Positions 8,332 through 27,906 of a stretch of DNA of 27,906 nt are shown one piece after another (position 1 is the first letter of the stretch; every line of letters begins with the position of its first letter). The stretch comes from a virus. Both the position numbers and the translations under genes were made by a program. The DNA is taken from positions 1 through 27,906 of IMG/VR virus record IMGVR_UViG_3300042923_001765; one strand, written 5' to 3'. The notes beneath the pieces are model-generated. The model was not told the origin of the DNA and did not search any database. It saw only the letters and a program-made list of their open reading frames with translations.

Positions 8332-8356
8332 AAAGACAATTTTGGGGGTGGCAACA

Positions 8357-8671
8357 ATGGATATGACAACAGCAGTACAACTCATACAAACTATAGGATT
8401 TCCTATGTTTGTAGCATTGGTTTGTGGTTGGTATATATATAAGACTGATAAGCGTTATAAAGACGAGGCAAAAGCAAGAGAAGATAAAGCCTGTGACTAT
8501 ATAAAAGACCTTGCCGATGCATTAAATAAATCTTCTGAGGCGATAAGTAATAGTACAAAAATCAACAGTGAACTATCTGAGACAAACAAAATGTTGGCAA
8601 ATGAACTAAAAGCTGAAATTGGCTCTGTGGGTAAAACTGTGGAAAAGATATATGAACAAGTAAGTAAGTAG
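8357..8671 (+). CDS. BhlA/UviB-like holin-type membrane protein
   Basis: ATG at 8357 is favoured over the in-frame TTG at 8342 because GGGGGTGG (8344-8351) lies just before it. The 104-aa product has one N-terminal hydrophobic segment (about 7-27, IQTIGFPMFVALVCGWYIY), then a charged KTDKRYKDEAKARED linker and a long coiled coil to the C-terminus. This is the layout of the BhlA/UviB bacteriocin-holin group. Such genes normally sit in lysis cassettes; here it lies between two head-tail joining genes. Alternatively it could be a structural membrane-anchored coiled-coil protein. Confidence 0.55.
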   Translation: MDMTTAVQLIQTIGFPMFVALVCGWYIYKTDKRYKDEAKAREDKACDYIKDLADALNKSSEAISNSTKINSELSETNKMLANELKAEIGSVGKTVEKIYEQVSK

Positions 8672-10883: not shown

Positions 10884-13541
10884 ATGGATTCAGCAGGAAA
10901 TGTAAGTATTTATGTAAATTATGCGTTAAATCAATCTAGCCTAAATCGAGTAAATAAGTCCATTAGTGGTCTTAATAGTCACGCTATCACTATAAGTAAT
11001 AGTTTTACTGGTGCTTTTTCAAAGATTGCTGGTGCGGCAGTTGCGGCCTTTTCAGTTTCAGCTATATCTAATTTTACAAAGTCCTGTATTGAGTTAAGTA
11101 GTAATTTAACGGAAGTGCAGAACGTAGTAGATGTTACATTTAGGCAGTTCTCAAGTAGGATTGATGAGTTTGCAAAGACTTCGATTGAAAAGTTTGGTAT
11201 ATCACAGTTATCAGCGAAACGTTATGCTTCCACAATGGGCGCTATGTTGAAAAGTTCGGGTATTGCAAGTCTTGGACAAGTTACAGATATGTCAGAGAAA
11301 ATTACTGGGTTAGCTGCCGATATGGCGTCCTTTTATAATATATCTTCTGATGATGCATTTGCTAAGATACGTTCTGGTATGTCAGGTATGACAGCACCTT
11401 TAAAAGAACTTGGTATTAGTATGACAGTAGCAAATCTTCAATCTTATGCTCTCACACAAGGTATAACAAAAAGCTATAAGACAATGAACAATGCTGAAAA
11501 GACAATGCTTAGATATAACTACTTGATGTCAGTAACAGCCGATGCTCAAGGTGACTTTTTACGTACGCAAGATACTTGGGCTAATCAAACAAGAATCCTT
11601 ACAGAGAAATTTAATGCTTTAAAGGGTACTCTTGGTGGGGCTTTTATATCTGTGTTGGAACCAGCCCTTAAAATGTTGGTTAATTTTATGGATACATTAC
11701 AGGTAGTAGCCGATAGATTCGCTTCTTTTGTAACACTTATAACAGGTAAAAAAACAGATACTATGAGTACAGCTAAGGCACAGGCGCAAGCAAACGCTTT
11801 AGCAGCAAGTACAGATACAGCGTCAGATAGCGTAGACGGTCTTGCAGATAGTTACAAAGCAGCTGGTACTGCAGCAAAAAAAGCAAGTGAATCTTTAGCG
11901 TCCTTTGATAATACTGTGCAGTTGGGTAGTTCATCTAGTTCAAGTGGTTCAGGTACTTCAAATACTGCTAGTGTAGATTCTCTTGTTGATGATTCAAGTG
12001 TATCAGAAACAAGTACTGCAGTAGATAAGATTACTGAAAAATTTAAAGGTTTGAAAAAGTATCTGAAAGGCTTTGTGAAAGATATTTTCAAAGGTACTGA
12101 TTTTAAAGAAAACTTCTCTTCTATTGCAAATTCACTGAAAACAATATTTGAAAAGACTAAACCATCAGCAAAAAACTTCTTTTCAAGTTACATAAATGCA
12201 ATGTTTGTAGAGGGTAAAGAGCTACTAAGAGTTGGTGTAGCTATTGTAGATGCCTTTGTTGGTGGCATAGAAATATGGTTGTCAGAGGGTAAAAATAGAA
12301 TTGCGAAGTCTTGGACAAGTATCTTTGACGAGTTTAGTGAGGGTTTTAATAACTCAGCTTCTATAATGACTAACTTTGGTGGATTACTAAGTGATTTTTT
12401 CAAATTAGATAGTACAAAACAAGCAATCGGTGATGCTTTAACAACAGTAGAGGGTTTTATAACTGGGGCAATGCAACTTTTTTCACAACTCTATAGTGAC
12501 ATAACAGCAACGATAGACCAAATAATTTCTGATAATACAGGTGGTTTAACATTATTCTTTTCAAATATTTCTACTGTTATAGGGTTGGAAATGAGTAATG
12601 TAAAAACTCTTGTTATAGGTGTGTTTAGTAGTATAAATAAAGCCTATACAGATTATATCAAACCTGCCTTTTCACAATTTGCTGACGGCGCGTCAAGTGC
12701 TTTTGGAACTATGGTAGATTTGTGGAATACATACCTACTACCTACAGTAATTGATATACAAAAAAGTTTTAAAACTCTATGGGATGAGAATCTAGGACCC
12801 TTTGTTGATAAAGTTTGTGGCATAGCTGGTAGATTAATTGAGCTGGTAGCCATAATTTATAAGCAATTTATAGTTCCATTCATTGAAAAATTTGAAAAGA
12901 AATTGATTCCTGCGATTACAGTAATTACAAGTATGATTTGGGGATTATTTAGTTCGGCAGTAAGTAGTATAGTTGATGTTTTCAGTGGATTGGCAGATAT
13001 TATAAACGGAGTTTTGGACGTTATTATTGGTGCACTGACTGGAGATACCAAACGACTTGTATCTGGATTAAAAGAGATATTGGCAGGTTTTGTGAACACT
13101 CTTGCAAGTATATTAACAATGCCACTTAATGCAATCATTGGTTCAATAAATGGATTCATTAAGGGAGTTAATAAAATTAAGATACCAGAGGGTATACCGG
13201 GAGTTGGTGGTGTAAGTTTTAATATCGCTGAAATACCGAAAATAAAAATACCAAAACTTGCTGATGGTGGTATCGTAACCAAGGAAACAAACTTTGGTAG
13301 TTATATTGCTGGAGAACGTGGAGCAGAAGCTATAGTACCTTTACAAAACTCAAATTACACACGAATTTTAGCACAAGAGATAGTAAAGGGAATGGTGGAT
13401 GCAGGTATAGGTGGTGGAGATACATACCAAATTGAAAATGCTTATGGTGATGAACGTTCCATGAACCGACTACTTAATAATATTGCAACTGCACAAGCTA
13501 AGAAAAAAGGTAATAAAGGGGGATTATCATATGGCTATTAA
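10884..13541 (+). CDS. Tail tape measure protein
   Basis: ATG at 10884 after AGAGGAGG. At 885 aa it is the longest gene in the window. Residues about 70-270 match the TP901-type tape measure core (segments SQLSAKRYASTMGAMLKSSG, GLAADMASFYNISSDDAF and GMTAPLKELGISM are characteristic). A Ser-rich linker (about 347-377) follows, then long amphipathic helices and hydrophobic stretches (about 680-740) that may insert into the host membrane during DNA ejection. The C-terminus has the common LADGGIV...AGERGAEAIVPL motif (about 791-815). By the usual 1.5 angstrom per residue rule the tail would be about 130 nm long. Its end overlaps the next gene by 11 bp. Confidence 0.93.
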   Translation: MDSAGNVSIYVNYALNQSSLNRVNKSISGLNSHAITISNSFTGAFSKIAGAAVAAFSVSAISNFTKSCIELSSNLTEVQNVVDVTFRQFSSRIDEFAKTSIEKFGISQLSAKRYASTMGAMLKSSGIASLGQVTDMSEKITGLAADMASFYNISSDDAFAKIRSGMSGMTAPLKELGISMTVANLQSYALTQGITKSYKTMNNAEKTMLRYNYLMSVTADAQGDFLRTQDTWANQTRILTEKFNALKGTLGGAFISVLEPALKMLVNFMDTLQVVADRFASFVTLITGKKTDTMSTAKAQAQANALAASTDTASDSVDGLADSYKAAGTAAKKASESLASFDNTVQLGSSSSSSGSGTSNTASVDSLVDDSSVSETSTAVDKITEKFKGLKKYLKGFVKDIFKGTDFKENFSSIANSLKTIFEKTKPSAKNFFSSYINAMFVEGKELLRVGVAIVDAFVGGIEIWLSEGKNRIAKSWTSIFDEFSEGFNNSASIMTNFGGLLSDFFKLDSTKQAIGDALTTVEGFITGAMQLFSQLYSDITATIDQIISDNTGGLTLFFSNISTVIGLEMSNVKTLVIGVFSSINKAYTDYIKPAFSQFADGASSAFGTMVDLWNTYLLPTVIDIQKSFKTLWDENLGPFVDKVCGIAGRLIELVAIIYKQFIVPFIEKFEKKLIPAITVITSMIWGLFSSAVSSIVDVFSGLADIINGVLDVIIGALTGDTKRLVSGLKEILAGFVNTLASILTMPLNAIIGSINGFIKGVNKIKIPEGIPGVGGVSFNIAEIPKIKIPKLADGGIVTKETNFGSYIAGERGAEAIVPLQNSNYTRILAQEIVKGMVDAGIGGGDTYQIENAYGDERSMNRLLNNIATAQAKKKGNKGGLSYGY

Positions 13542-13905
13542 TACAGTTTTACCTTATGTGACAATCAATGGCGTTGAGTTCAAAGAGTTCGACGCCTATA
13601 AACCCTCACGTTTTGATATAACAAAAGGCGGAAGAAATGAACTGACAGGTAAGAATAATTTACGTCTTATAGCAAAAAAATGGAAATTGGTGCTTGGTGC
13701 GGCATATATAAGTGACGCTGTTTATAAGCAGATAACAGATTTCATAGACCAAAATAGCCTTGATGTTAATGTGACTTTTAGAGATAAAGACACAGCAAAT
13801 TTGGTATCTATAAACTGTTATGCAGTCTATGACAAAGACCGTACCAAAGAAGCAGATGCTATGGGTTGTTGGAGTAACTTTTCGTTGGAATTGATAGAGA
13901 ATTAA
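13531..13905 (+). CDS. Small tail protein (DUF6711-like)
   Basis: ATG at 13531, chosen over an in-frame TTG at 13483, because AAAGGGGGAT (13515-13524) precedes it; it overlaps the tape measure end. The 124-aa protein is beta-rich and begins with an INGVEFKEFDAYKPSRFDI segment, followed by a K-K-W-K-L strand. This resembles the DUF6711-type proteins that follow the tape measure in many Firmicutes siphophages and are thought to join the tail tip. The family call is from memory of the pattern and order. Confidence 0.55.
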   Translation: MAINTVLPYVTINGVEFKEFDAYKPSRFDITKGGRNELTGKNNLRLIAKKWKLVLGAAYISDAVYKQITDFIDQNSLDVNVTFRDKDTANLVSINCYAVYDKDRTKEADAMGCWSNFSLELIEN

Positions 13906-13920
13906 GAAAGGGGTTGTACT

Positions 13921-15240
13921 ATGAGCCAATTAAAGATAATTGTAAAGGTTGATGATACAACCTCTTACACTTTCTTGGAAACTAATAATCTTATAGAAGG
14001 TGTAAGTATAGCACGTAAAATGGATTCAGATATAAAAGCACTTGTGTCAGATATAGAATGCGGAGAAGTCAATATACAGATGTCCAATCTTTTCAATGAC
14101 TTCAATACGACTTCAGCAACAGCAAAGTATAGTAAGTTGAAAAATGGGCAATCTGTGAAGATTTACAATATAACTGATACAACTACTACTCTTCTTTTTA
14201 CAGGGTTCTTAGTTGACTTTAAAGCACCCACAAGCAGTAAGACACAGAGTTGCAGTCTGCGCGTTGTAGACAGACTGCACTATATCTTGAATAGTGAAAT
14301 AACATCAACTTTTACAGTAGACAGCGATATAACGCTGTCAGCATACGTAACTTTACTGTTTACTGCCTTTGGTCTTACTGCAGATGAATACGTCATAGAT
14401 ACGTCATTAGCAGATATAATATTGAGTTATTCCTTAATAACAGGGTATAAACTGGCAGAGCAACTAAATAACATTTGTAAGGCTGTAGACGCTTATATTT
14501 ATGTAGATAAGGCGGGTATTCTGCAAGTAAAACCAAAAGAAATTACAGGTATAGCAACTACCTTATTTAATCGTGAATCAAAGATTAATTGCCTTGAAAA
14601 TAGTGAATTTGGTGCAAGTATACTTTCTTCATATAATTGCTTGAAAGTTGGTTACGTTGCTACAAAACAGTCCGAAGTAAAAGAAGTTTTAAAACTAGCA
14701 AGTATCACAGCAAAGCCGGGGATAACAACAATTGAAAATTATGCCTTAGAAACGGGTAATTTATATGAATTAGATAGCCTTAAAGTAACTTCGTCAGCAG
14801 ATGTCGTAGTATCTTCTGTTTCAGCTACTTCTTCAACGATAACATTAGCTTTAAAGAATGATACCACAGTTGATGAAATAGTAAGTATAGCTGTTTATGG
14901 TAAAGTAATTGAAACAGCTGAATCCTACATAATTAAAACAGTAGAATCCGAAAAAACTGTACAGACCTTAGAAGTTTCAAGCATTCTTGTACAATCAAAA
15001 GCATATGCAGAATCACTTGCAAATAAACTTTATGCCCGTGCTTCATTGCCTTTGCCGTATATAACAGCAGATGTAACAGTTATAGATTTTACTGTTGATT
15101 TAGGTGATATAGTAAGGATTCAAGATACCGAAGCAGACCTTGATTATACTGGGTATATTCACTCCATAGATATAGAGTATGATGGTCAAGGATATTCTTA
15201 CTATAATTTAGGAATTAAATATGTAGAGGAGGTTGCATAG
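13921..15240 (+). CDS. Tail hub / tail-associated structural protein
   Basis: ATG at 13921 after AAGGGGTTG. A 439-aa beta-rich protein. Residues about 1-120 (two small barrels, with LKNGQSVKIYN and FTGFLVDFKAP strands), a helical insert (about 175-200, AEQLNNICKAVDAYIYVD) and a C-terminal barrel (LGDIVRIQDTEADLDYTGYI) give the gp27/XkdQ-type hub layout seen in tail-tip and baseplate hubs. It directly follows the DUF6711-like gene and precedes further tail-tip genes. No peptidoglycan hydrolase domain is fused to it, unlike many Tal proteins. Confidence 0.6.
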   Translation: MSQLKIIVKVDDTTSYTFLETNNLIEGVSIARKMDSDIKALVSDIECGEVNIQMSNLFNDFNTTSATAKYSKLKNGQSVKIYNITDTTTTLLFTGFLVDFKAPTSSKTQSCSLRVVDRLHYILNSEITSTFTVDSDITLSAYVTLLFTAFGLTADEYVIDTSLADIILSYSLITGYKLAEQLNNICKAVDAYIYVDKAGILQVKPKEITGIATTLFNRESKINCLENSEFGASILSSYNCLKVGYVATKQSEVKEVLKLASITAKPGITTIENYALETGNLYELDSLKVTSSADVVVSSVSATSSTITLALKNDTTVDEIVSIAVYGKVIETAESYIIKTVESEKTVQTLEVSSILVQSKAYAESLANKLYARASLPLPYITADVTVIDFTVDLGDIVRIQDTEADLDYTGYIHSIDIEYDGQGYSYYNLGIKYVEEVA

Positions 15241-15241
15241 T

Positions 15242-16438
15242 ATGGCAGAATTAACTTATAAGACTAGTCCACTTTGGAAAGACACAACAGTTATAGCGAT
15301 TGCACCTATGCAATCCACTTCTATCACAATAGCTGATATAAAGACAGCTGCAAAATACTTAAACTTTCAGCAGACCGTAGTAAAAAATGGTGCTACTTTG
15401 TATCAGTTTCAGGCGAAGTCCTCAATAAACTGCAAAATATCATATAAGAGTGAATTCTTAAAGAATGAAAATTTTATGATTTTATTTAATCGTGATACTG
15501 AGGATGTGGATGGAGTTTTCACTAATATAGCAATACTTGAATTGCAAGGAAATGATATTGCAGAAATAATACTAACAATTACAAATAATAGCACTGCTGA
15601 TACTCTCACAATCAATTCAATGGCGATTTATGAGAGTGATGATGTGCAGATAACAACAATTGCTAAAGTATTAAAAGAAGAAACAATAGCGGCTGACGTT
15701 ATACAAGCTACCAGTTCTTTCACGGATTCTCTTTTTACTCAACTTTTACAGACCTCTGTAATGTCAATGACAACTCGTAATGCAAATCCGGGTGATGTTG
15801 TGAATTACTTGAAAATTGAGAATTATACTCAATCCTTTTATCGTGCAACTTTAGGTACTGAAACAGAGCAATTTTCAATAACAACTACAACTGCGGGAAC
15901 AGAAAGCACCACATACTACTGGTACGCAGTAATTGAGGGAGAGGATGCTTATAAGTACATAACAACTGTTGACCCACGTACCAAATATCCTGATATAAGT
16001 GATTCTAATAGAGATGCTTTTAAGTTATTGGTATATAAACCAATTACTTTGGTAAAAGACTTAGAAATTAAATTTGCTGAGGCAGACGATGGCACAATTA
16101 TACCGTCAATAGTCTATGGTGCTGGCTCTTCTGCAGGCACACGTTTGGGTAAAGGTTTTACATATAAGAATTCTAATGGGTTTTATCATACGTATGTGAA
16201 AGAAGATGGTACAGGAACTATTGGTATTATTATGGATTCCGACGGTGTACATATTAAGGGTTTGGCAGACCAACATTGCGAATACATTAAGTTTCGAGAT
16301 AATGGAGTACAATTAAAATATTCTGGTGAAAACGAACATAAATTCGAGTATATTTTTAGTGAAACTGACGACATAACTGGGTATATACAGGATTCTAATT
16401 ATATTACCAATGTTTCTTATGAAGCAGGAAATGTATAA
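15242..16438 (+). CDS. Tail-tip structural protein (398 aa)
   Basis: ATG at 15242 is preferred to the in-frame TTG at 15233 because GAGGAGG (15226-15232) lies at good distance. The protein is Thr/Ser-rich and strongly beta-patterned: residues about 20-140 look like a jelly-roll domain (NFMILFNRDTEDVDG, NIAILELQGNDIAEIIL), a helical linker follows (about 150-180), and the C-terminal part (about 285-398) has short Gly-rich strands (GTIGIIMDSDGVHIKGL) reminiscent of fibre anchor proteins. The start overlaps the previous stop region, indicating coupling. Likely part of the tail tip or fibre attachment; not assigned to a named family. Confidence 0.55.
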   Translation: MAELTYKTSPLWKDTTVIAIAPMQSTSITIADIKTAAKYLNFQQTVVKNGATLYQFQAKSSINCKISYKSEFLKNENFMILFNRDTEDVDGVFTNIAILELQGNDIAEIILTITNNSTADTLTINSMAIYESDDVQITTIAKVLKEETIAADVIQATSSFTDSLFTQLLQTSVMSMTTRNANPGDVVNYLKIENYTQSFYRATLGTETEQFSITTTTAGTESTTYYWYAVIEGEDAYKYITTVDPRTKYPDISDSNRDAFKLLVYKPITLVKDLEIKFAEADDGTIIPSIVYGAGSSAGTRLGKGFTYKNSNGFYHTYVKEDGTGTIGIIMDSDGVHIKGLADQHCEYIKFRDNGVQLKYSGENEHKFEYIFSETDDITGYIQDSNYITNVSYEAGNV

Positions 16439-16479
16439 GTGGGCATATATAAAATATAAGTAAGGGACTTTTTTAAAAC

Positions 16480-16508
16480 TTGGACACATTGTACTACAGT
16501 TATATAAA
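16480..16508 (+). promoter_or_regulatory. Possible promoter before cohesin-domain gene
   Basis: TTGGAC (16480-16485), 17-bp spacer, TATAAA (16503-16508), in the 99-bp gap before the cohesin-domain gene. It would allow the two surface genes to be transcribed separately from the late operon. AT-rich context makes chance matches common. Confidence 0.4.
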
Positions 16509-16537
16509 TATTTGTAGAGGAGAGGGTGATATAAAAG

Positions 16538-18007
16538 ATGTCAACAATAACAGAAATTGATTGGAAATACTACTGGTTAGGCTACTCTATGGGAGTAACT
16601 AGCTATAAGAGAATCTTGGAATCACCTACCACTATAATTAACTATGGTAAGCAAGGTGTGAAAGTAAGCTTAACTAATAAGCAAAAAGTTTCTTTTATCT
16701 TAGGACTTCAAGATGGTAGACGTAAGATAGTTAACAATCATAATCAAGTATTGGTTAAAATGACACAAAGTAGAAAACCAACAAGAACTACAAAGCCATA
16801 TCTTACTCTTGCAGTAGGTGAATTACAAGGTGTCAGAGGTTCTTATGTAGATATACCAGTCTATATAGAAAATAATCGTGTAGATAATCGTGGTGTTGCA
16901 GGTTTTCAACTTTCACTATCATATGATAGTACAAAGTTAGATTTTGTCAGTATAACTCAATCGTCTGCATGGACCGGAACTTTAATTTCAGATACTTCAA
17001 CAGTAGGAACAATACGAGCGCAAGGTATGAAAACAGTTGCAGATAAAGTGGATTGTGCTATCTGCAACCTGCGCTTTCTAGTCAAAGCAGATGTACCAGA
17101 ATCAACAGCAGAGATACCTTTAAGTTTACAGGGTAGTCCGGGAACAGGCATTGGTTCAGAACTGTTCACATTGATAACTGAGGAACTTTATTACATAACA
17201 CCAATCACTCTCACAAGTGGTAAAGTGCTGCTTGAATCCAAGCAGGCCGCACCTATTGCATCCGAGATTACAGCAGTTGAGGGAACAACAACGATAGGTT
17301 CAGGTAGTTCAAGTGTAGACTTTAGCTTTGATGCAACTGTTGGAGTTCCAGCAGGTATCACACCAAGTGGTGGCATTTCAGCATATGTCAATGTATATCT
17401 TAATGGTACACGGATAGGTACTCAAAAAGTATCACTAGAACAAGGCACTAAAAAATACAGTGGAAATGTATTGCTATCACTTCCGAGCCTTGAAACAGGT
17501 TCAATAACTTACGAAATAGTAGTAGAACCTGATAATACTGAGGATGAGGGTTTTTATTATGTTTTCATCAAGGTAGGTGCGTTGTTTATATTGCAAACAG
17601 AGATAAAACGTGAGGAAGTTAATGCTCTTCCACCACTTGATACCAAACGTAAGCTATATGATAACTGGATTATATACGATGAAGTATGGTTTAATACTAT
17701 AAGTAGTGGTGGTCACGAGCCTGTAGACGTTTTAGTTACAGATACGTGGGTAGTTGGGGATACTGCAGTATTAAATACATATATACAAAAATTGCATGAA
17801 GTCCTTGAAACAGTTAGTTTACAAGACATCGTAGACTTTATTCATTACAATCCTAATCCTACACCACATACACCTATTAATGAAAAAATAGCAGAATTTT
17901 TGAAACTGTTAGATTTGATAGAGATAGAGTTAAATAATGCAACTTTAGAAGAAGACGCAGATATTCACAGTATAAGTGATGACGTACTGTTTACAACACA
18001 TAAATAA
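16538..18007 (+). CDS. Tail surface protein with cohesin domain
   Basis: ATG at 16538 after AGAGGAGAGGG. Residues about 1-75 form an N-terminal helical part with WLGYSMGVTSYKR and ILGLQDGRRK. Residues about 88-232 match a cohesin module: an LTLAVGELQGVRGSYVDIPV start, the signature GVAGFQLSLSYDSTKLDFVS, a GTIRAQGM strand, CNLRFLVKADVP, and the closing strand SGKVLL. Cohesins are the beta-sandwich receptors for dockerins in cellulosomes. A second beta-sandwich (about 255-345) and a helical C-terminus (about 415-489) follow. Placed between tail-tip genes and the terminal fibre gene, it is probably displayed on the virion and may bind dockerin-like or glycan ligands on host cells. I see no dockerin in this window. 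Confidence 0.7.
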   Translation: MSTITEIDWKYYWLGYSMGVTSYKRILESPTTIINYGKQGVKVSLTNKQKVSFILGLQDGRRKIVNNHNQVLVKMTQSRKPTRTTKPYLTLAVGELQGVRGSYVDIPVYIENNRVDNRGVAGFQLSLSYDSTKLDFVSITQSSAWTGTLISDTSTVGTIRAQGMKTVADKVDCAICNLRFLVKADVPESTAEIPLSLQGSPGTGIGSELFTLITEELYYITPITLTSGKVLLESKQAAPIASEITAVEGTTTIGSGSSSVDFSFDATVGVPAGITPSGGISAYVNVYLNGTRIGTQKVSLEQGTKKYSGNVLLSLPSLETGSITYEIVVEPDNTEDEGFYYVFIKVGALFILQTEIKREEVNALPPLDTKRKLYDNWIIYDEVWFNTISSGGHEPVDVLVTDTWVVGDTAVLNTYIQKLHEVLETVSLQDIVDFIHYNPNPTPHTPINEKIAEFLKLLDLIEIELNNATLEEDADIHSISDDVLFTTHK

Positions 18008-18020
18008 GGGGGTTATAGAT

Positions 18021-19493
18021 ATGGCAGAAAATATCAAGAAAAAAGGTTTTATACACTTTATAACAATGAAAGAAGATGGTACAGTAACAAAAGAGCTTAA
18101 TGTACCAAATATAGTAACAGAGTTGGGTGACGTGTACTTTGATGCTACAAGTGGTGCCAATATCTTTGCATTAATGCGAGGTATAGAGGAAGCTGTTGAC
18201 TTTGTTAATTCTCCGCTTTTCAGAATGAACAATGCAACTACTATCAGTACGGGTGATGACGACAATAATTTGTGTGTTTATCTCTTAAATCTCACAGAAT
18301 CTGATAAAGCATCATTATCAGCAGATAGCCGGATTCTTCCAATATACACACCGGGTACTTTTGCTATTGATTCTACTAAGATTGTAGGTTGGGCGAGCCT
18401 TGACCGTAGTAGCACACAAGCAAAGCAAGGTGTTTTATCTAGTAGAGCAACAGACACGATACTAAACCCAAAATCATCTAGCGTAGCTTGGGAATGGGCA
18501 GTTGGTAAGGCTACGGGTACTTTCAATTGTATAGCGGTAGGTGTAAACGTAGTAAACACAAGCAGTTATGCTTATGCTGGTCTTAGTATCTTTAGAGGTT
18601 TGGAAAATAACGATGTTAATGCAGGTGACCCAAACCCATCAGGATACTATGCAAGACCCGGAATTTCTGGTATTACTAGTGCAAATGAAATTCTGCTTGG
18701 TGGAACAACAACAGATGGTAGAGCAAGAATTAAGTGGGACTTAGTTTCAAATGTGAAAACAGAACTAACAGCTACAGATGCTGCTTATGACTTTAAACTT
18801 AGTATGGCAGATACACCACAAGTGATTATAGGGACAAAAGTCTTTTATATCTATCAAGGTTATGTATGGGTATATGATACTGTAGCAAAAACACACTCTA
18901 ACACAAACATATATCCATACAGATATTGGATGTTTGCATATAATGGATACTTATATGTACCGGGTTCTACTACTACTTGTTATGCTTATGATACCTCATC
19001 ATATGCTAATGTAAGCGCACAGAACAAAACGATAAGTGAGATGTTGGGTATTCCTAACACCGATGCTTTTTATAATCCATTGACAGCAAGCAGTTACAGA
19101 AGCTTTTTATATTGGAGAATCAGTAACTATGGTGACACAGGGAATTTCCTTATATCTTTTGACTATAACAGCACACGTGAGTATAAGCGTGCATTTGTGG
19201 TGTCAAACCTTTTTACTGCTAATACAGTAGTAGATATACTTCCAAGAGTTTCTACACCATCAGCATATACTATCAATAACGAAATATGGATGTTTGATTA
19301 TAATACGTTAGATAATTTGATTCAAAACATCACAGGTCAGACAACAAATACAATAAGTTCTTTTGGCTCATATGGTACAAAGTGGAGTAAGTTTTTTGGT
19401 AATATGATTTCATTTAAAATATATGATACACCACTAACTATAGCAGCTGATGAAGTTGCAAAAGTAGAGTACGCTTATAAATCCGGGTCATAA
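18021..19493 (+). CDS. Putative tail fibre / receptor-binding protein
   Basis: ATG at 18021 is chosen over an upstream in-frame ATG at 17976 because TAAGGGGGTT lies just before it. The 490-aa protein starts with a segment KGFIHFITMKEDGTVTKEL and continues as a beta-rich N-terminal domain (about 20-195). The C-terminal half has blade-like repeats rich in aromatic residues (TKVFYIYQGYVWVYDTVAK, WMFAYNGYLYVPGS, NEIWMFDYNTLDN), which suggest a kelch-like propeller. It is the last gene of the late operon, the standard place for the receptor-binding protein. A strong terminator follows 3 bp after the stop. Confidence 0.65.
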   Translation: MAENIKKKGFIHFITMKEDGTVTKELNVPNIVTELGDVYFDATSGANIFALMRGIEEAVDFVNSPLFRMNNATTISTGDDDNNLCVYLLNLTESDKASLSADSRILPIYTPGTFAIDSTKIVGWASLDRSSTQAKQGVLSSRATDTILNPKSSSVAWEWAVGKATGTFNCIAVGVNVVNTSSYAYAGLSIFRGLENNDVNAGDPNPSGYYARPGISGITSANEILLGGTTTDGRARIKWDLVSNVKTELTATDAAYDFKLSMADTPQVIIGTKVFYIYQGYVWVYDTVAKTHSNTNIYPYRYWMFAYNGYLYVPGSTTTCYAYDTSSYANVSAQNKTISEMLGIPNTDAFYNPLTASSYRSFLYWRISNYGDTGNFLISFDYNSTREYKRAFVVSNLFTANTVVDILPRVSTPSAYTINNEIWMFDYNTLDNLIQNITGQTTNTISSFGSYGTKWSKFFGNMISFKIYDTPLTIAADEVAKVEYAYKSGS

Positions 19494-19496
19494 TTA

Positions 19497-19525
19497 ATAA
19501 GGTAGGCTGTGATAGCCTACCTTAT
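19497..19525 (+). terminator. Late operon terminator
   Basis: Perfect 12-bp stem ATAAGGTAGGCT (19497-19508) and AGCCTACCTTAT (19514-19525) around GTGAT, then CTTTAT. Ends the tail operon. Confidence 0.8.
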
Positions 19526-20058
19526 CTTTATGCCTATATGGGTACTTTTTAACGTAGTTGCCTATAAGTTGCATAATATATAGGATATTATGCAACCCGC
19601 GCATCCACTACTACCTATCTTCCTATACTTTTTAATATAACAAGTCATAACTTACATAATCAGACCTATTTTTAATTTATTAGAATCCTAAGAAAAAGTG
19701 GCACTTTTTAAGCTCATTTTTTCTATCCATATACTTTTTTGGCAAATACCACCCTGAAATTATCATTTTCTGATAAAAAATAAAACGAAGAGAAAAAATA
19801 TACTGCTAACTACCACTTTTAATAACATAATTGATAAATTAACCTTTGACAATGTTTATTAAAATAGCTACTACAGTGATTATAAATCTCTACACAGTAG
19901 TTATACAAAAGCTGAGACATATAATATAAGTTTGTACATATGTTAGCTTTTTATAAGCTATTTGTATAATTCAGCGAAGACATACTATAAAAACATCTGC
20001 AGTTATTATAAAATTGGTAAGTTGATTTTAGTATGTAGTAGAGAGGGGTGTTATAATT
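19526..20058 (+). other. Noncoding AT-rich region with several dyads
   Basis: 533 bp without a credible gene on either strand. It holds a perfect 11-bp hairpin at 19568-19596, a 17-bp palindrome AAAAAGTG-G-CACTTTTT (19693-19709), smaller stems such as TTATCA/TGATAA and TAGCTT/AAGCTA, and a TTGACA at 19846-19851 with only a weak -10 (TACTAC, 19869). A possible promoter, TTGTAT (19962-19967) with an 18-bp spacer to TATAAA (19986-19991), could serve the gene at 20059. The density of dyads suggests regulatory sites or a small RNA; nothing here is recognised as an origin or tRNA. Confidence 0.5.
19568..19596 (+). other. Perfect 11-bp hairpin
   Basis: GTTGCATAATA (19568-19578), 7-nt loop, TATTATGCAAC (19586-19596). 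No T-tract follows (CCGCGCATCC), so it is not a typical terminator. Confidence 0.6.
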
Positions 20059-20573: not shown

Positions 20574-21365
20574 ATGATAGTAAAGTATTTTTCATATAGA
20601 TTTGCTGCTGAGATACTACAGCATCCTAAATACTCAATGATTTTTAGCGAGCTTATGAGAGTTTGTACAGAATGTCCATTACCACTTTACGAGGGTAAAT
20701 CACGAACCCAAGCGGGCAAAGATATAGTTCAGCAAGTAATGAATTCGTTTTTTAAACATAGGTTTGTTTCATTAGGTTGGGAAGCAGAACCTTTGGCAAC
20801 ACCTAATGACAATGAAGATGCACTACGTTCAGATTTCAGAAAAACATTCTGTGACGCAACAACGGGTGAAATAACTGCAACTATTCAAATTGAAGTTGAA
20901 TTTGGAAATGTTGCTTCCTCATACCGTAATTATTTCAAGTTTCAGTTATCTTTTTCCTATGGACTTACTGACATATGTGTACTGATAGTTCCATCACAGC
21001 ATCTTTCAGTTAGAATTGACTCAGGTGTATCAAATTTTGAAAAAACATTGAGAGAAATCCCAAGCGCAAAATTGTCAATAACCGTACCAACTTTGGTAAT
21101 TGGGTTATTTGATGAAGATGAAAACGGACGAGTTGTACCTTGGGATGTAAAAGCAATTACTACAAACCTTGATGTGTTAAAGGGTGATAAACTTGCAGAT
21201 AGACCGCAGCATAGCCAAATTATTCAAACCTATGTAAATCAGGTTAGCACTATACCTGTAATTAATCAATATGACCCTTTGGGTGGGAATGCCTTACCAC
21301 AAATGAATGTGTTTAATGCTAGGCCAGACCAGAATCTAATGTTTCCGGAATTTTTTAATCAGTAA
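20574..21365 (+). CDS. BglII/BstYI-like type II restriction endonuclease
   Basis: ATG at 20574 after AAAGGGGG. The 263-aa protein resembles the BglII/BstYI family from memory: a helical N-terminus with a GW segment (LGWEAEP, about 68-74), then D87 and the core strand IQIEVEFGN (104-112), followed by a Y-x-x-F motif (120-123) and VLIVPSQHLSVRIDSGVS (136-153) ending in PTLVIGL. In BglII the active site is D..E-x-Q; here E107 and E109 fit as E-x-E, with D87 the probable first acidic residue, though it lies further upstream than usual. Family members cut within GATC-containing sites. It is convergent with the cytosine-5 methyltransferase and shares its terminator, as in a type II restriction-modification system. 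Specificity is inferred, not proven. Confidence 0.65.
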   Translation: MIVKYFSYRFAAEILQHPKYSMIFSELMRVCTECPLPLYEGKSRTQAGKDIVQQVMNSFFKHRFVSLGWEAEPLATPNDNEDALRSDFRKTFCDATTGEITATIQIEVEFGNVASSYRNYFKFQLSFSYGLTDICVLIVPSQHLSVRIDSGVSNFEKTLREIPSAKLSITVPTLVIGLFDEDENGRVVPWDVKAITTNLDVLKGDKLADRPQHSQIIQTYVNQVSTIPVINQYDPLGGNALPQMNVFNARPDQNLMFPEFFNQ

Positions 21366-21367
21366 AT

Positions 21368-21391
21368 AAGAGTAGGCTTGCGCCTACTCTT
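21368..21391 (+). terminator. Bidirectional terminator between R and M genes
   Basis: AAGAGTAGGC (21368-21377), loop TTGC, GCCTACTCTT (21382-21391): perfect 10-bp stem, with T-rich sequence on the + side. It overlaps the methyltransferase stop codon and serves the converging genes. Confidence 0.75.
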
Positions 21392-22574
21392 TATCTATTA
21401 TCTTTGAAATTTCTTTCCCTAATTTCTCAATGATTCCAACTACAAGCGCATTTCCCATACAAAAGTAACGCATCTTCTCAGGCATCCCTGTATTAGTCCA
21501 ATCATCAGCAAACCCGTTTAACCTTTCACATTCAATAGGTGTTAAAAGCCTGTATTCGTGGGTATTGAGGTCTTCGACAACGTGGGTAGAACGATTCACA
21601 CTAGATTCACTTGTTAACATTGTACGAGCAGGACGGTCCGTAGGGTCAGGGAAAGCAATACTACCCTCAGCAAAAGTGTACTCATAACCAGTTTTTGAGG
21701 TTCTTTGTAGCTGTTTTGAACCTTTAAGATATTCCCATTTTGTTCGGTCTACACCTAAAAAGTAGTGAGCATCTATATTGTGTTCCATAATTTCTGCAAG
21801 TGTTTTTGCAGTTTGATATATAGGTGTTGTTTTTGCAGTAGTAATAACTCCATTCTGCATAAAGCCAGCTACCTCAAATGTATATTTGAAATTGTTGGAT
21901 ATCTCAACCAAATTATCAGTAGTGAATGCACTTTGAGTAGATGCAAATTCAACTTCTATAGGAAATGCTTTGGCAAATACACCTTCTGTTGCAATAATAT
22001 CTTGAGCTATTTTTTTAGTCATCTTATTATAATACATAGTGCTATTATGATAAGCATATATAAAAATTCTTCTTCGTCTTTGAGCAAAACCGTAATCGGC
22101 TGCGTTAATGATTCTCCACTCAACCGAATAACCTAGTGCATTGAGTGTATGTAACATTACACCGAAGTCACGTCCTCTTTGTGTCGAGGGTGATTTAACT
22201 AACCTATCTACATTTTCTAATAGAACAAAAGGAGGTCTTTTTGCTTCCAATATATCTCTGATTTCCCACCATAGTACACCTTTTTTACCCTCGATTCCTT
22301 TTGCGCTTGTACTTGCAACCGAATAATCCTGACACGGAAATCCCCCAACTAACAGCGAATGTGAGGGTATGCTGTGTTTTGCAATACCTATGTCCTCATT
22401 AACACATTCTGTAGTTTCTCCAAAATGACTTTTATAACAATCAAAAGCGTGCTGAACCTTTTTACCCGGCTCCCACTGATTTGCCCAAATTATCTTAAAG
22501 TTTGAATCTGCTTGTGTTAATCCACGGTGAAACCCGCCTACGCCCGCAAACAGTTCGCATACTGTTTTTTTCAT
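21384..22574 (-). CDS. DNA cytosine-5 methyltransferase, Sau3AI-like
   Basis: Transfers a methyl group from S-adenosylmethionine to C5 of cytosine. The ATG at 22574 (- strand) follows GGAGGAG. All key motifs are present: I (ELFAGVGGF, 7-15), IV with catalytic Cys81 (GGFPCQDYSV), VI (ENVDRL, 120-125), VIII (AQRRRRIFIY, 164-173), and X near the end (MGNALVVGIIEKLG). The length (396 aa) is normal. The strings NQWEP..K.QHAFDCY, KSPSTQRGRDFGVML and PARTMLTSESSVNRSTH closely recall M.Sau3AI, which modifies GATC. The target-recognition region (about 200-310) also looks similar. It is convergent with the BglII/BstYI-like endonuclease and lies 48 bp downstream of the serine recombinase gene, probably in the same transcript. 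Confidence 0.88.
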   Translation of the reverse strand: MKKTVCELFAGVGGFHRGLTQADSNFKIIWANQWEPGKKVQHAFDCYKSHFGETTECVNEDIGIAKHSIPSHSLLVGGFPCQDYSVASTSAKGIEGKKGVLWWEIRDILEAKRPPFVLLENVDRLVKSPSTQRGRDFGVMLHTLNALGYSVEWRIINAADYGFAQRRRRIFIYAYHNSTMYYNKMTKKIAQDIIATEGVFAKAFPIEVEFASTQSAFTTDNLVEISNNFKYTFEVAGFMQNGVITTAKTTPIYQTAKTLAEIMEHNIDAHYFLGVDRTKWEYLKGSKQLQRTSKTGYEYTFAEGSIAFPDPTDRPARTMLTSESSVNRSTHVVEDLNTHEYRLLTPIECERLNGFADDWTNTGMPEKMRYFCMGNALVVGIIEKLGKEISKIIDKE

Positions 22575-22622: not shown

Positions 22623-23231
22623 TTAGCAATTACTTTTTGTAGAATGTATGTTCTTTTCTTCGTATTCCTTTATCATCCTATCAAGTGTAGGTCTACTTAT
22701 TTTAAGCTGTTTGGCAAGTTGTAACTTGCTAACCTCGCGTGTCATATACCGAGTATAGTGGGTAGGAAAATCTTTAATTGACTTTGTATTGGAACCTTTA
22801 TATTTACCAGCCTCTTTTGCAATTTTTATTCCCTCTCTTTGACGTTCGAGCAAAGTAGACCTCTCCAGTTCTGAAATGGCACTTATGACAACAATAAAAA
22901 ATTTTCCCATAGGCGTAGAAGTATCAATGCTTTCCTTAAGACTTACTAATCTGACAGATTTTTTGTCGAGAAGTTCTACTATACTAAGTAAGTCCTTAGT
23001 ACTTCTAGCCAATCTATCGAAACTTAAAATGTATATTGTATCTGGTTCAATATTAGCATCCTCACTACCACCACGAACATAGTTAAGCATTTCTTGGAGT
23101 TTAGGTCTGTTAGTGTCTTTAGCACTAACCTTTTCTATGAACCACTTATCAATACTATATTCTTTTAAAGCTTCTATTTGGCGTTGCTCATTTTGGTCCA
23201 CAGAACTTACACGTACATAAGCTACTCTCAT
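22623..23231 (-). CDS. Serine recombinase (resolvase/invertase)
   Basis: The ATG at 23231 (- strand) follows GAGAGGAAG. The 202-aa protein is a complete small serine recombinase. Nucleophile Ser9 lies in YVRVSSVDQN with Arg7; the active-site loop SFDRLARST (70-78) supplies Arg73 and Arg76; a long E-helix with ELERSTLLERQREGI (121-135) follows; and a C-terminal helix-turn-helix (about 166-192, SKLQLAKQLKISRPTLDRMI) binds DNA. It should resolve or invert DNA between short sites. The upstream region has a promoter and a small palindrome that could be part of its site. It is unusual as the first gene of a methyltransferase operon and may have mobilised or phase-varied the restriction-modification cargo. 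Confidence 0.88.
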   Translation of the reverse strand: MRVAYVRVSSVDQNEQRQIEALKEYSIDKWFIEKVSAKDTNRPKLQEMLNYVRGGSEDANIEPDTIYILSFDRLARSTKDLLSIVELLDKKSVRLVSLKESIDTSTPMGKFFIVVISAISELERSTLLERQREGIKIAKEAGKYKGSNTKSIKDFPTHYTRYMTREVSKLQLAKQLKISRPTLDRMIKEYEEKNIHSTKSNC

Positions 23232-23413: not shown

Positions 23414-23463
23414 GAACGAGAATAGTAAGTTATGGTTTAAATTGATATTTTGAGGTGATACAT

Positions 23464-24645
23464 ATGTTAATTTCAATAGCTAAAATAAAGGTAAGTAATA
23501 ATAGACGGGAAGTGGATGAAGCAAAAATACTAGAATTAGCTGACTCTATCAAAACGGTAGGATTAATAAATCCAATTACTATTTCAACAAATAATGATTT
23601 AATAGCTGGTGCGCATAGACTACTGGCATATAAGCAACTTGGCTTGAATGAAATAGAATCAAATGTTGTAGAATTAACGGAACTACAACAAGAACTTATA
23701 GAAATAGATGAAAATTTAATTAGGAATGAATTGCATTACACAGAGCGCGGTGAGCAGCTACTTAGAAGAAAAGCTATATATGAAGAGTTGCATCCCCAAT
23801 CAAAACACGGTATGCGAAACGGGCAGACTTCTAAAAACGAAATAATTTCGTCTTTAGAAACCAAGTCTTTTGCTGATGAAATTGCTGATAAAATAAATGT
23901 TTCTGCAAGGACGATTCAACAAGAAATTCAGATTGCAAAAGACCTAGCACCAAGTGTAAAGGGTATCATAAGACAAAGTGATTTAAGCAAAACAACTGCA
24001 CTTAAATTGGCAAGACTTGAACCGGAGATGCAAGAAAAAGCTATTGAACTTATTATAGGTAAAGATATAAGTTTAGAAAAGGCATTAAAAGATATAAAAC
24101 TGCAAGAAATAAAAAGTAATATACTTACACACGAACCAAAAACTCTAACAGGGTCATACGATATAATTTATGCAGACCCACCTTGGAAGTACGAGTTTTC
24201 TGAGACTTCAAGTAGAAGTATAGAAGCAAAGTATCCTACAATGACTATAGACGAGTTAAAAGATATAATGATACCAGCCGATGATAATGCAGTTTTACTG
24301 CTCTGGGCAACCGCACCACTTTTAAAAAAGGCTATCGAATTAATGGAACATTGGGGTTTTATATATAGAACATGTGCTGTATGGGATAAGCAGAAATTTG
24401 GCACCGGGTATTGGTTTAGAGGTCAACACGAACTTTTACTCGTAGGTGTAAAAGGTGAGTTTTCTCCCCCACAACCAGAAGCTAGGGTATCATCTGTATT
24501 CAGAGAAGTTAGGACAGTTCACAGCAAAAAGCCTGATTATTACTATGGATTGATTGAAAGTATGTTTCCTAACTGTAGATACATAGAGATGTTTGCTAGG
24601 ACTAAACATAGTGCTAAGTGGGACGTGTGGGGAAACCAAATATAG
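23464..24645 (+). CDS. ParB-MT-A70 adenine methyltransferase fusion
   Basis: ATG at 23464, chosen over GTG at 23455, with TGAGGTGATA as ribosome binding site. Residues about 1-95 are a ParB/Srx-like nuclease-type domain (LADSIKTVGLINPITI and LIAGAHRLLAYKQLG). Residues about 95-215 form a helical ParB-type DNA-binding middle with a helix-turn-helix (FADEIADKINVSARTIQQEI). Residues about 230-393 are an MT-A70-type N6-adenine methyltransferase with the catalytic DPPW (238-241) and a WGFIYRTCAVWDK strand. The 393-aa fusion is known in phages. It probably methylates adenines at sites chosen by the ParB part and may protect phage DNA; its target is unknown. It is divergent from the recombinase operon, with its own promoter. 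Confidence 0.85.
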   Translation: MLISIAKIKVSNNRREVDEAKILELADSIKTVGLINPITISTNNDLIAGAHRLLAYKQLGLNEIESNVVELTELQQELIEIDENLIRNELHYTERGEQLLRRKAIYEELHPQSKHGMRNGQTSKNEIISSLETKSFADEIADKINVSARTIQQEIQIAKDLAPSVKGIIRQSDLSKTTALKLARLEPEMQEKAIELIIGKDISLEKALKDIKLQEIKSNILTHEPKTLTGSYDIIYADPPWKYEFSETSSRSIEAKYPTMTIDELKDIMIPADDNAVLLLWATAPLLKKAIELMEHWGFIYRTCAVWDKQKFGTGYWFRGQHELLLVGVKGEFSPPQPEARVSSVFREVRTVHSKKPDYYYGLIESMFPNCRYIEMFARTKHSAKWDVWGNQI

Positions 24646-24695: not shown

Positions 24696-24721
24696 GTGTG
24701 TAAAATACATAAAAGGTGTGT
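24672..24721. repeat. Inverted GGTGTGT sites at int promoter
   Basis: ACACACC (24672-24678, the complement of GGTGTGT) and GGTGTGT (24715-24721) face each other around the integrase -10 box. The same heptamer recurs twice after the gene at 26040-26058, as expected for arm-type integrase sites. Confidence 0.5.
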
Positions 24722-24727
24722 GATAAA

Positions 24728-25996
24728 TTGAGAACAAGAGAATATAAAGGAAAAGAGCTACCAGAAGGTATCTTTTATGATGATAAAAAGAAAAAGTTTG
24801 GTTACCGTATTAAAATCAAAGATGCTACTGGGGAAAAAAGAGACAGAACTAAATGTGAGTTTAGCCTGCAAACAGAAGCGGTTTCTGCAAGAAGAATTGC
24901 ACTTCACGAACTGAAAGATATAAAACCTGAGCCAGAACAAGTCCAAGAGCCTATTTATGATAAGACTTTTGAGGATGTTTATAATAAATATCTTGAAGAT
25001 ATAGCTCAAAAGCGTAGACTTTCTACTAATAAAAAACACGACAGTTTATGGAAAAATCATATCAAACCATATTTTGGAGATAAAAAGTTAGTTGAGGTAT
25101 CGGCTGGTGATATGCGTAAGTACCTACAACAACTATATGATAAAGGTGACGAATATAACAACTATAAGTGTAGTTATAGTTATGGGTATGTTGTAGGTTT
25201 TATTAAGTTTTTTTTCTTAATTTATGGTCTTGCATATGATTATAATTGGATTACTGGGGATTTATATAATAAAAATTTTGTTAATAGGCAGACAAAACTT
25301 CATATGCCTGAAATGACATACGAAGATAAAGAAGATGATAAAAATGTAGTTATATTTTCTAAAGAAGAATTAAGAAAATTGGATGAAATTTTAAAAGATA
25401 GTAATATCTATATCTGCTATATGATAGGTCTGCATTTAGGTTTACGAATCTCAGAATGTATGGGTTTAATGTGGTCCGATGTAAACTGGGATAAACAAAC
25501 CATAAAAATTACAAAACAATTACAGTACCAAGACTTTTGTTTTTGCTTAGTACCACCTAAAACAGATGCAGGAAATCGTACCTTATACATACCAGATAAA
25601 CTTTTCACTTATCTTAAACAGTACAAGGAAGAACAAGACAAAACAAAGAAGTTAAAAGGAAAAGGGTATAAGGCAACTGAACGTGTATTAAATAGGTTAT
25701 ATAGTGAAGAAAAGGAAATTATAGGCGGTGCTTTTATCCAACGTAAGGAAAATGGAGAGTTAATCACTATAAACTCAATAAAATATTGGACTACTAAAAT
25801 AAAAAAAGAAAATATAGATTTCAAATTCCATACTTTGCGTCATACCTGTGCGTCACATTTAGCATCTATGAATGTACCTAAATCAGCACTTATGAAGTAT
25901 ATGGGTCATAAAAGTATGGCAATCACTGAACAGTATTATCTTGCAGATAATGAACTTGCAGAAGAAAAAATGAGAGCAGCTTTAAACTCAATATAA
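24728..25996 (+). CDS. int: Tyrosine integrase
   Basis: Catalyses site-specific integration and excision of the prophage. TTG at 24728 is preferred because AAAGGTG (24712-24718) lies about 9 bases upstream; a GTG at 24716 would overlap that site. The 422-aa protein has an N-terminal arm-binding domain (about 1-60, KFGYRIKIKDATGEKRDR), a core-binding SAM-like domain (about 75-175) and a C-terminal catalytic domain. Catalytic residues visible are Arg in LGLRISE (about 240), His and Arg in HTLRHT (about 367-372), His in MGHKS and the nucleophile Tyr in TEQYYL (about 401). It resembles Tn916-type/Firmicutes phage integrases. Located at the prophage end next to host DNA. Confidence 0.92.
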   Translation: MRTREYKGKELPEGIFYDDKKKKFGYRIKIKDATGEKRDRTKCEFSLQTEAVSARRIALHELKDIKPEPEQVQEPIYDKTFEDVYNKYLEDIAQKRRLSTNKKHDSLWKNHIKPYFGDKKLVEVSAGDMRKYLQQLYDKGDEYNNYKCSYSYGYVVGFIKFFFLIYGLAYDYNWITGDLYNKNFVNRQTKLHMPEMTYEDKEDDKNVVIFSKEELRKLDEILKDSNIYICYMIGLHLGLRISECMGLMWSDVNWDKQTIKITKQLQYQDFCFCLVPPKTDAGNRTLYIPDKLFTYLKQYKEEQDKTKKLKGKGYKATERVLNRLYSEEKEIIGGAFIQRKENGELITINSIKYWTTKIKKENIDFKFHTLRHTCASHLASMNVPKSALMKYMGHKSMAITEQYYLADNELAEEKMRAALNSI

Positions 25997-26313: not shown

Positions 26314-27906
26314 TTATTTACGATTAGCAGGTTCGATATTAATGCTCTTACCCTTGATTTTTGCGTCCTTCATTACCTGAACCACTTCGGAAGCATATTC
26401 TCTTGGTACTTCTACAAAGGTGTATTTATCATACATATCGATACTTCCAATTAATTTACCGGGCATTCCGGTTTCTCCAGCGATAGCTCCAAGAATATCT
26501 CCTGGTCTGGTATTTTGTTTCTTACCAATATTAATAAACAGTCGAACCATACCTTCTTCAGCACCTGTATCACCGTAATCCTCATAACTTGCTTTTTGAA
26601 CTAGCTGTTCATTATCATCACCCATAGCCATCTTTAAAAAGGCAGCTGCTACATCAAGGGAAGTAAAATCTTCGGAGTTTACACGTTCTTCGATTAAGTC
26701 AATCATTTTGCTTAAATCTTCAGATTGAATTAGATTGGTTACACGTTCTAATATTTTCTCAGCTTTAACTGCTGTCACATCATTTACAGATGGTATTGGC
26801 TGTGCAATAATTTTTGTTTTACAATATTTTTGTATATCTCTTAGTTTATAGACTTCTTTTCCAACAACTAAGTTAAATGCTCTTCCGGTTCTTCCTGCGC
26901 GGCCTGTTCTTCCAATACGATGTACATAGTACTCATCATCCTGTGGAACATCATAGTTAAATACCGCTTCTACATCATCAACATCAATTCCTCTTGCTGC
27001 AACATCAGTAGCTACCAGTATTTCAGTCTTACCATTACGGAAGCTGCCCATTACCCTGTCTCTTTGCTGTTGTTTTAAGTCTCCATGCAGCCCATCTGCA
27101 AAGTATCCTCTACCCTGTAATGCACTCACAAGTTCATCAACCTGTCTTTTGGTATTACAGAAAACTAAAGATAGTTTTGGATTGTAAATGTCTAAAAGTC
27201 TGCATAATACTTCTTCTTTATTTTTCGCATTTACTTCGTAGTAATATTGTTCAATCTTAGGTACTGTTAACTCTTTTTTCACTACTTTAATAATCTCTGC
27301 ACTTTTCTGATAAGTTCTTGCAATATCCATAATTGGTTTTGGCATAGTTGCAGAGAATAATACGGTCTGTCTCTCTTCTGGTACATCTTTTAAGATTGTT
27401 TCTATATCTTCACGGAATCCCATGTTAAGCATTTCATCTGCTTCATCCAAAACAATCATTTTCACATCGTCAAATTTTACTGTTTTTCTTCTCATATGGT
27501 CCATAACACGGCCTGGTGTTCCGATTACAACCTGTGTTCCAGCTTTTAAGGAACGTATTTGTTTTGATATTTCCTGTCCTCCATAGATTGGTAACACTTT
27601 GATACCGTGAAGGTATTTTCCTAACTTACGTATCTCTTCAGCTACCTGAATTGCAAGTTCTCTGGTTGGACATAATATTACTGCCTGTAATTGTTTATTT
27701 TTAGGGTCAATTAACTGTAATAAAGGTATGCCAAAAGCTGCTGTTTTTCCAGTTCCTGTTTGTGCCTGGCCAACAATATCCTTACCGGATAAAATTACCG
27801 GAATAGCACTTGCCTGGATAGGAGATGCAACTTCAAATCCCATATCAACAACTGCTTTTAATAGTGGTTCACTAATGTTTAATTCTTCAAATCTTACTGT
27901 TTGCAT
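26314..27906 (-). CDS. deaD: DEAD-box ATP-dependent RNA helicase
   Basis: Host gene that unwinds short RNA duplexes using ATP; in this family it acts in ribosome assembly, cold adaptation and RNA decay. The ATG (27906, - strand) is the last base of the window, so the promoter is not visible. All motifs are present: Q motif (F..L.....L........SPIQ), I (AQTGTGKT), Ia (PTRELAIQ), Ib (TPGR), II (DEAD), III (SAT), IV (LVFCNTKRQ), V (ATDVAARGID) and VI (HRIGRTGRAG). The C-terminal region (about 455-530) resembles the DbpA-type RNA-binding domain (VRLFINIGKKQNTRPGDILG). At 530 aa it fits CshA/DeaD of clostridia. Codon use and composition look more GC-rich than the phage genes. Confidence 0.95.
   Translation of the reverse strand: MQTVRFEELNISEPLLKAVVDMGFEVASPIQASAIPVILSGKDIVGQAQTGTGKTAAFGIPLLQLIDPKNKQLQAVILCPTRELAIQVAEEIRKLGKYLHGIKVLPIYGGQEISKQIRSLKAGTQVVIGTPGRVMDHMRRKTVKFDDVKMIVLDEADEMLNMGFREDIETILKDVPEERQTVLFSATMPKPIMDIARTYQKSAEIIKVVKKELTVPKIEQYYYEVNAKNKEEVLCRLLDIYNPKLSLVFCNTKRQVDELVSALQGRGYFADGLHGDLKQQQRDRVMGSFRNGKTEILVATDVAARGIDVDDVEAVFNYDVPQDDEYYVHRIGRTGRAGRTGRAFNLVVGKEVYKLRDIQKYCKTKIIAQPIPSVNDVTAVKAEKILERVTNLIQSEDLSKMIDLIEERVNSEDFTSLDVAAAFLKMAMGDDNEQLVQKASYEDYGDTGAEEGMVRLFINIGKKQNTRPGDILGAIAGETGMPGKLIGSIDMYDKYTFVEVPREYASEVVQVMKDAKIKGKSINIEPANRK

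Follow-up and report, generated by a model that had tools for sequence, protein, structure and literature searches.

A cohesin domain in a protein encoded within the tail module of a siphophage-like prophage

We found that a gene in the tail module of a siphophage-like prophage (16538-18007, + strand) encodes a genuine cohesin domain, a reading confirmed from the sequence of the domain and the position of the gene. A cohesin is unusual in a virus. Our leading explanation, to which we assign a probability of about 0.45, is that the product is a distal tail protein carrying a cohesin captured from Clostridia as a putative adhesion module.

Background

In the cellulose-degrading complexes of bacteria, cohesins form one half of the docking pair. 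They are also known as docking modules in surface proteins of bacteria and archaea. The IMG/VR record studied here reads as a siphophage-like prophage, and the window, that is, the whole stretch of DNA that was analysed, is 27,906 bases long. In the present study, we examined the cohesin-bearing protein encoded in the window (hereafter P0001), its genomic setting, its relatives in viruses and cells, and the dockerins of its presumed host.

Results

The window encodes terminase subunits, a portal, a major head protein, a tail tube-like protein, a tape measure, and a phrog_1887 tail protein. After the last of these come two unknown proteins flanking P0001, then an integrase, and then, on the opposite strand, a DEAD-box helicase. 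The tape measure protein (10884-13541, + strand) matched phrog_1535 (3e-102), and the tail protein (13921-15240, + strand), Tal/gp27-like by its position, matched phrog_1887 (1.3e-8). The small protein encoded between these two genes (13483-13905, + strand) is distal-tail-like by that position and had no family match. The tail-module protein 5' of the cohesin gene (15245-16438, + strand; ORF 15233-16438) gave no significant match. It is followed by a gap of 100 bp (16438-16538), the cohesin gene, and the gene of a possible receptor-binding protein (18021-19493, + strand; no significant family match), the ATG of which lies 13 bp past the cohesin stop and shortly 3' of a GGGGG stretch. No IMG/VR relatives of the neighboring tail genes or the capsid protein were confirmed. 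Lying 3' of the tape measure and phrog_1887 genes on the same strand, the P0001 gene is within the tail module, as the first-pass annotation had stated in placing it in a tail operon. The annotation had also described the gene as adjoining the receptor-binding gene; the adjacency holds, but the neighbor found no family match that would identify it as a receptor-binding protein.

The tyrosine integrase (24716-25996, + strand; phrog_1, 6.5e-48) stands at the right end of the prophage, and the DEAD-box RNA helicase (26314-27906, - strand; Pfam DEAD/DbpA), which is at most 89% identical to sequences in bacterial genomes, is a host gene past the prophage edge. DNA identity to the bacterial genomes G415 and G726 spans the helicase and stops at about its 3' end, which fits such an edge. 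The left part of the prophage is probably outside the record. About 560 bp (19494-20058) that separate the tail module from the right-hand genes contain no ORF of at least 60 aa on either strand. Beyond this stretch (20574-22574), a BglII-family restriction endonuclease gene (Pfam 41.7 bits, cut-off 26) is convergent with a C5-cytosine methyltransferase gene, and this pair, located past the tail genes and ahead of the integrase gene, likely forms a type II restriction-modification cassette. A serine recombinase or DNA invertase-like gene adjoins this pair (22623-23231; phrog_125, 1.8e-59), and an MT-A70 adenine methyltransferase is fused to a ParB N-terminal domain at 23455-24645. No endolysin or other lysis enzyme was recognized in the window; a weak BhlA-holin-like match (18.2 bits, cut-off 22.6) lies inside the head module at 8342-8671.

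P0001 is encoded by an intact ORF of 489 aa preceded by a ribosome-binding-like stretch, GAGGAGAGGG. The protein matched the Pfam family Cohesin (PF00963) at residues 90-193 with 36.9 bits (E 5e-9), and the DNA-level search with the same profile gave 38.8 bits at 16805-17116. Both scores are above the curated cut-off of 24.1 bits, and the Pfam search that the first-pass annotation had proposed as a check was thereby positive. The match fades over the last strands because it covers profile positions 2-112 of 139. In the alignment to bacterial cohesins, the full domain occupies residues ~88-235 (16799-17242, + strand).

Against an HMM built from ten bacterial cohesins, with the phage sequence excluded, P0001 scored 63.6 bits, and the best of 2000 composition shuffles of P0001 reached 10.3 bits. 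As the ten rows had themselves been collected by similarity to P0001, this test shows real relatedness, and the identity of the domain as a cohesin rests on the Pfam and PDB results. A sequence search of the PDB with P0001 (phmmer) gave four weak matches, all of them cohesins (best E 0.02). With the phage row included, a profile recovered cohesin-bearing PDB chains (33 sequences). P0001 contains one cohesin. The earlier placement of a cohesin at residues ~88-232 agrees with the full aligned domain. We rejected a generic Ig-like sandwich as a label for the domain because the cohesin score is specific.

The domain model, which covers 160 residues and was built with four alignment rows, is of medium confidence (mean pLDDT 56, pTM 0.60). 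When it was compared with the PDB by Foldseek, the structural check suggested with the original annotation, cohesins made up 35 of the 36 best matches. As bacterial cohesin rows were fed into the alignment and aided the model, the fold search supports the assignment without being independent of it. We consider it almost certain that the P0001 domain has the cohesin fold.

The remainder of the protein is less readily classified. Searches of Pfam, PHROGs, and related phages gave no match for residues 1-85 (16538-16792, + strand), which possibly form the virion attachment part. A second beta-rich region follows the cohesin at residues ~240-335 (17246-17548, + strand); it contains beta strands in the full-length model, which was made without an alignment and is of low confidence (pLDDT 36), and includes a match to CARDB (cell-adhesion related) at residues 283-337 that, at 17.7 bits, is below the cut-off of 22.7. 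The C-terminal region (17585-18004, + strand) is partly helical, with helices at residues 409-467 in the same model, and had no significant family match. The CARDB-like region directly after the cohesin is what might be expected if the cohesin, like many other beta-sandwiches in phage tail proteins, had no dockerin partner and served as a structural spacer that stiffens the protein or binds sugars weakly. Among the fold matches of the domain model there is also a fibrillar adhesin domain, which points the same way. We regard this spacer role as the main rival of the adhesion reading and as a real possibility, short of an even chance. However, the sequence is specifically that of a cohesin rather than of a generic Ig-like sandwich, and the nearest relatives are often linked to a dockerin within one chain.

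In the cohesin of Clostridium thermocellum, Asn37 and Asp39 contact the Ser/Thr motif of the dockerin (PMC5772552). The P0001 motif GVAGFQ aligns over GIASGD (3kcp) and GISTAD (5nrk), and by our own residue mapping the two contact positions are occupied by Gly122 and Gln124, so that neither contact is retained. With Gln124 as the equivalent of Asp39, canonical type-I dockerin specificity is unlikely, and the changed binding-face residue would also suit a spacer. Most cellular relatives whose chain also includes a dockerin likewise have no Asp at this position; therefore, Gln124 is compatible with binding to a dockerin of another type.

The cellular relatives, having cohesin and dockerin in one chain, raise the possibility that the P0001 cohesin pairs with a dockerin-like partner inside the virion, in tail assembly, as these relatives may do between chains. 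However, the Pfam scan found no dockerin in the window ORFs scanned, in a record from which part of the phage, at its left, is probably missing, and of all the explanations weighed we consider this one the least probable. That the partner of the P0001 cohesin is a dockerin is plausible, although less likely than not. In a fuller proposal, the cohesin-dockerin pair familiar from cellulosomes would serve in phage adsorption: the tail cohesin would attach to host-surface enzymes or scaffold proteins that carry dockerins, which would tie host range to the cellulosome. We hold this fuller proposal to be somewhat less likely still.

Neither a signal peptide nor a membrane segment was found in P0001, and its N-terminus has no hydrophobic segment (Kyte-Doolittle-19 maximum of 0.32 in the first ~60 residues), which makes Sec export unlikely. 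If P0001 works extracellularly, it thus most likely exits on virions. The same observation bears on whether the gene might instead be cargo (a moron) with a role in the lysogen or outside the virion, present in the tail operon by chance. The 100-bp gap ahead of the gene would fit a moron, as would the fact that relatives of the domain are otherwise found in cells only. However, without a signal peptide P0001 would have no access to the cell surface via Sec, the gene is on the same strand as the next tail-module gene at a distance of 13 bp, and the promoter scan gave no more sites than shuffles did and none in the gap. We therefore consider a cargo role improbable. From the position of the gene we infer that P0001 is a tail surface protein located on the virion, and we think it quite probable that it is a virion component.

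Pattern scans confirmed no relative of whole P0001 in IMG/VR; the alignment of 11 rows was too variable for such a scan. The whole protein likewise found no relative among 50,697 phage records, where raising the limit to E 10 added chance-level matches only, and no match among 72,556 plasmids. In PHROGs, neither the whole protein nor its parts gave a significant match, and no homology to known tail proteins was seen in PHROGs, the phage records, or IMG/VR. No cohesin was found in six phages related by the tape measure, and the tail protein gave nothing in the 348 family genomes, in a search run without a positive control. Some candidate phage relatives were rejected. MT837893, which carries a classical cohesin, is a 6-kb fragment with transpeptidase-like and O-antigen-ligase-like genes and reads as bacterial. 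L049, L031, and L056-L059, also considered as candidates, read as proteins of cells that are either secreted or anchored in the membrane.

Foldseek against predicted viral structures (BFVD) gave one match with E < 0.001, A0A7T8ERM8, and a few others with a probability near 1, including A0A6J5M064 from an uncultured Caudovirales phage. A0A7T8ERM8, A0A6J5M064, and A0A7T8ESD7 match the phage domain in fold; however, they have 19-22% identity, borderline E-values, and a different architecture, and one of the three is annotated with a secretion sorting domain. Judging from these model-based matches, a cohesin-like fold is probably a rare feature of viruses and not one unique to P0001. The weak viral fold matches also included A0A8S5M688, a protein from a Myoviridae metagenome that bears the name 'Dockerin type 1'. 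In the literature searched, which included few subscription journals, we found no description of a cohesin in a phage tail.

In cells, P0001 matched 15 genomes from the 391 class and 348 family genomes searched, and one relative (L002) came from genome contigs. The cohesin domain is the centre of every cellular match, and the matching proteins that we examined read as bacterial cell-surface proteins, the closest being cohesin domains in surface proteins of Clostridia. Of the 19 matching ORFs, 9 (with open frames of 841-1618 aa) encode a Dockerin_1 domain in frame with the cohesin, and at least one dockerin occurred in 14 of the 15 matching genomes. In G255, G195, G058, G151, G530, and other genomes, a cohesin and a dockerin are found in one Clostridia surface chain, sometimes in the order cohesin-dockerin-cohesin. 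As its nearest relatives are of this type, the phage domain groups with non-cellulosomal-type cohesins often found with dockerins, and not with the scaffold cohesins of the presumed host genus.

The presumed host was approached through the helicase, which is 89% identical to that of G415, 86% to that of G488, and 85% to that of G726; we read the host family as Lachnospiraceae-like. On whether the host encodes dockerins, a check raised by the first-pass annotation, the result is divided: Dockerin_1 is over the cut-off in 6 of 15 genomes of the genus of G415, but no dockerin exceeded the threshold in G415 or G726, the nearest of the checked genomes by helicase. The latter result counts in favor of the spacer. 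Dockerin_1 matches number 11 in G738, where most are clustered, and four in each of G731 and G740. In each of these three genomes, one protein combines a leader, an N-terminal module, and a single cohesin (L052-L054), and the clusters of 4-11 dockerins adjoin or lie near this scaffold-like protein. These loci are small cellulosome-type systems. The first-pass proposal that the protein may let the virion dock on surfaces bearing dockerins or glycans is thus supported in part, namely by the cohesin itself, the tail setting of its gene, and a plausible host genus with dockerins in some species.

Discussion

We favor the explanation that P0001 is a distal tail protein with a cohesin captured from Clostridia; that the cohesin is used as an adhesion module, a putative role, we consider slightly better than an even chance. 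A siphophage-like prophage would have captured a cohesin-family beta-sandwich from a Clostridia surface protein, and P0001 would be assembled into the tail tip via its N- or C-terminal parts. The cohesin could then face outward and bind a protein partner on the host surface, the simplest being a dockerin-bearing enzyme or scaffold protein. Such a contact might aid a first, reversible binding ahead of engagement of the true receptor. We count for this explanation the cohesin identity, the one-strand tail position, the lack of an export signal, the dockerin-linked relatives, and the dockerins in the host genus, and against it the absence of dockerin matches in the window ORFs scanned and in G415 and G726, Gln124, and the absence of a relative in the phage collections searched.

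If dockerin binding is true, the cellulosome surface would be a phage receptor, and this might be relevant to how cellulosome parts vary among related species. If the domain does not bind dockerins, the gene still documents that a phage tail has taken up an adhesion module of bacterial origin. Because both bacteria and archaea are known to have cohesins and dockerins of the non-cellulosomal kind (PMC9012536 and its reference 166), the family as such is not new.

With the cellulosomal type-I cohesins (CipA, 1ohz/3kcp; ScaB, 5nrk/5nrm), P0001 has the fold and the Pfam family in common, but it differs from them in having Gln124 for Asp39, no scaffold, and no CBM, and phmmer relates them at E 0.02 at best. 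With one cohesin, no CBM, and no leader, P0001 does not have the makeup of a cellulosomal scaffoldin. The single-cohesin scaffold-like proteins L052-L054 also share the cohesin domain and come from the genus nearest by helicase; however, they are not the closest relatives (no tblastn match), are secreted, and have an extra N-terminal module that we read as CBM-like. N-terminal leaders are present in the cellular cohesin proteins L049 and L052, whereas P0001 has none. The closest relatives are the non-cellulosomal-type cohesins of Clostridia (L015, L019, L021, and L051). Although these belong to large bacterial proteins, and P0001 has 489 aa and one cohesin without a dockerin or a leader, they share with the phage domain a G-x-A-G-F...YD core and about 26-50% identity over the matched part.
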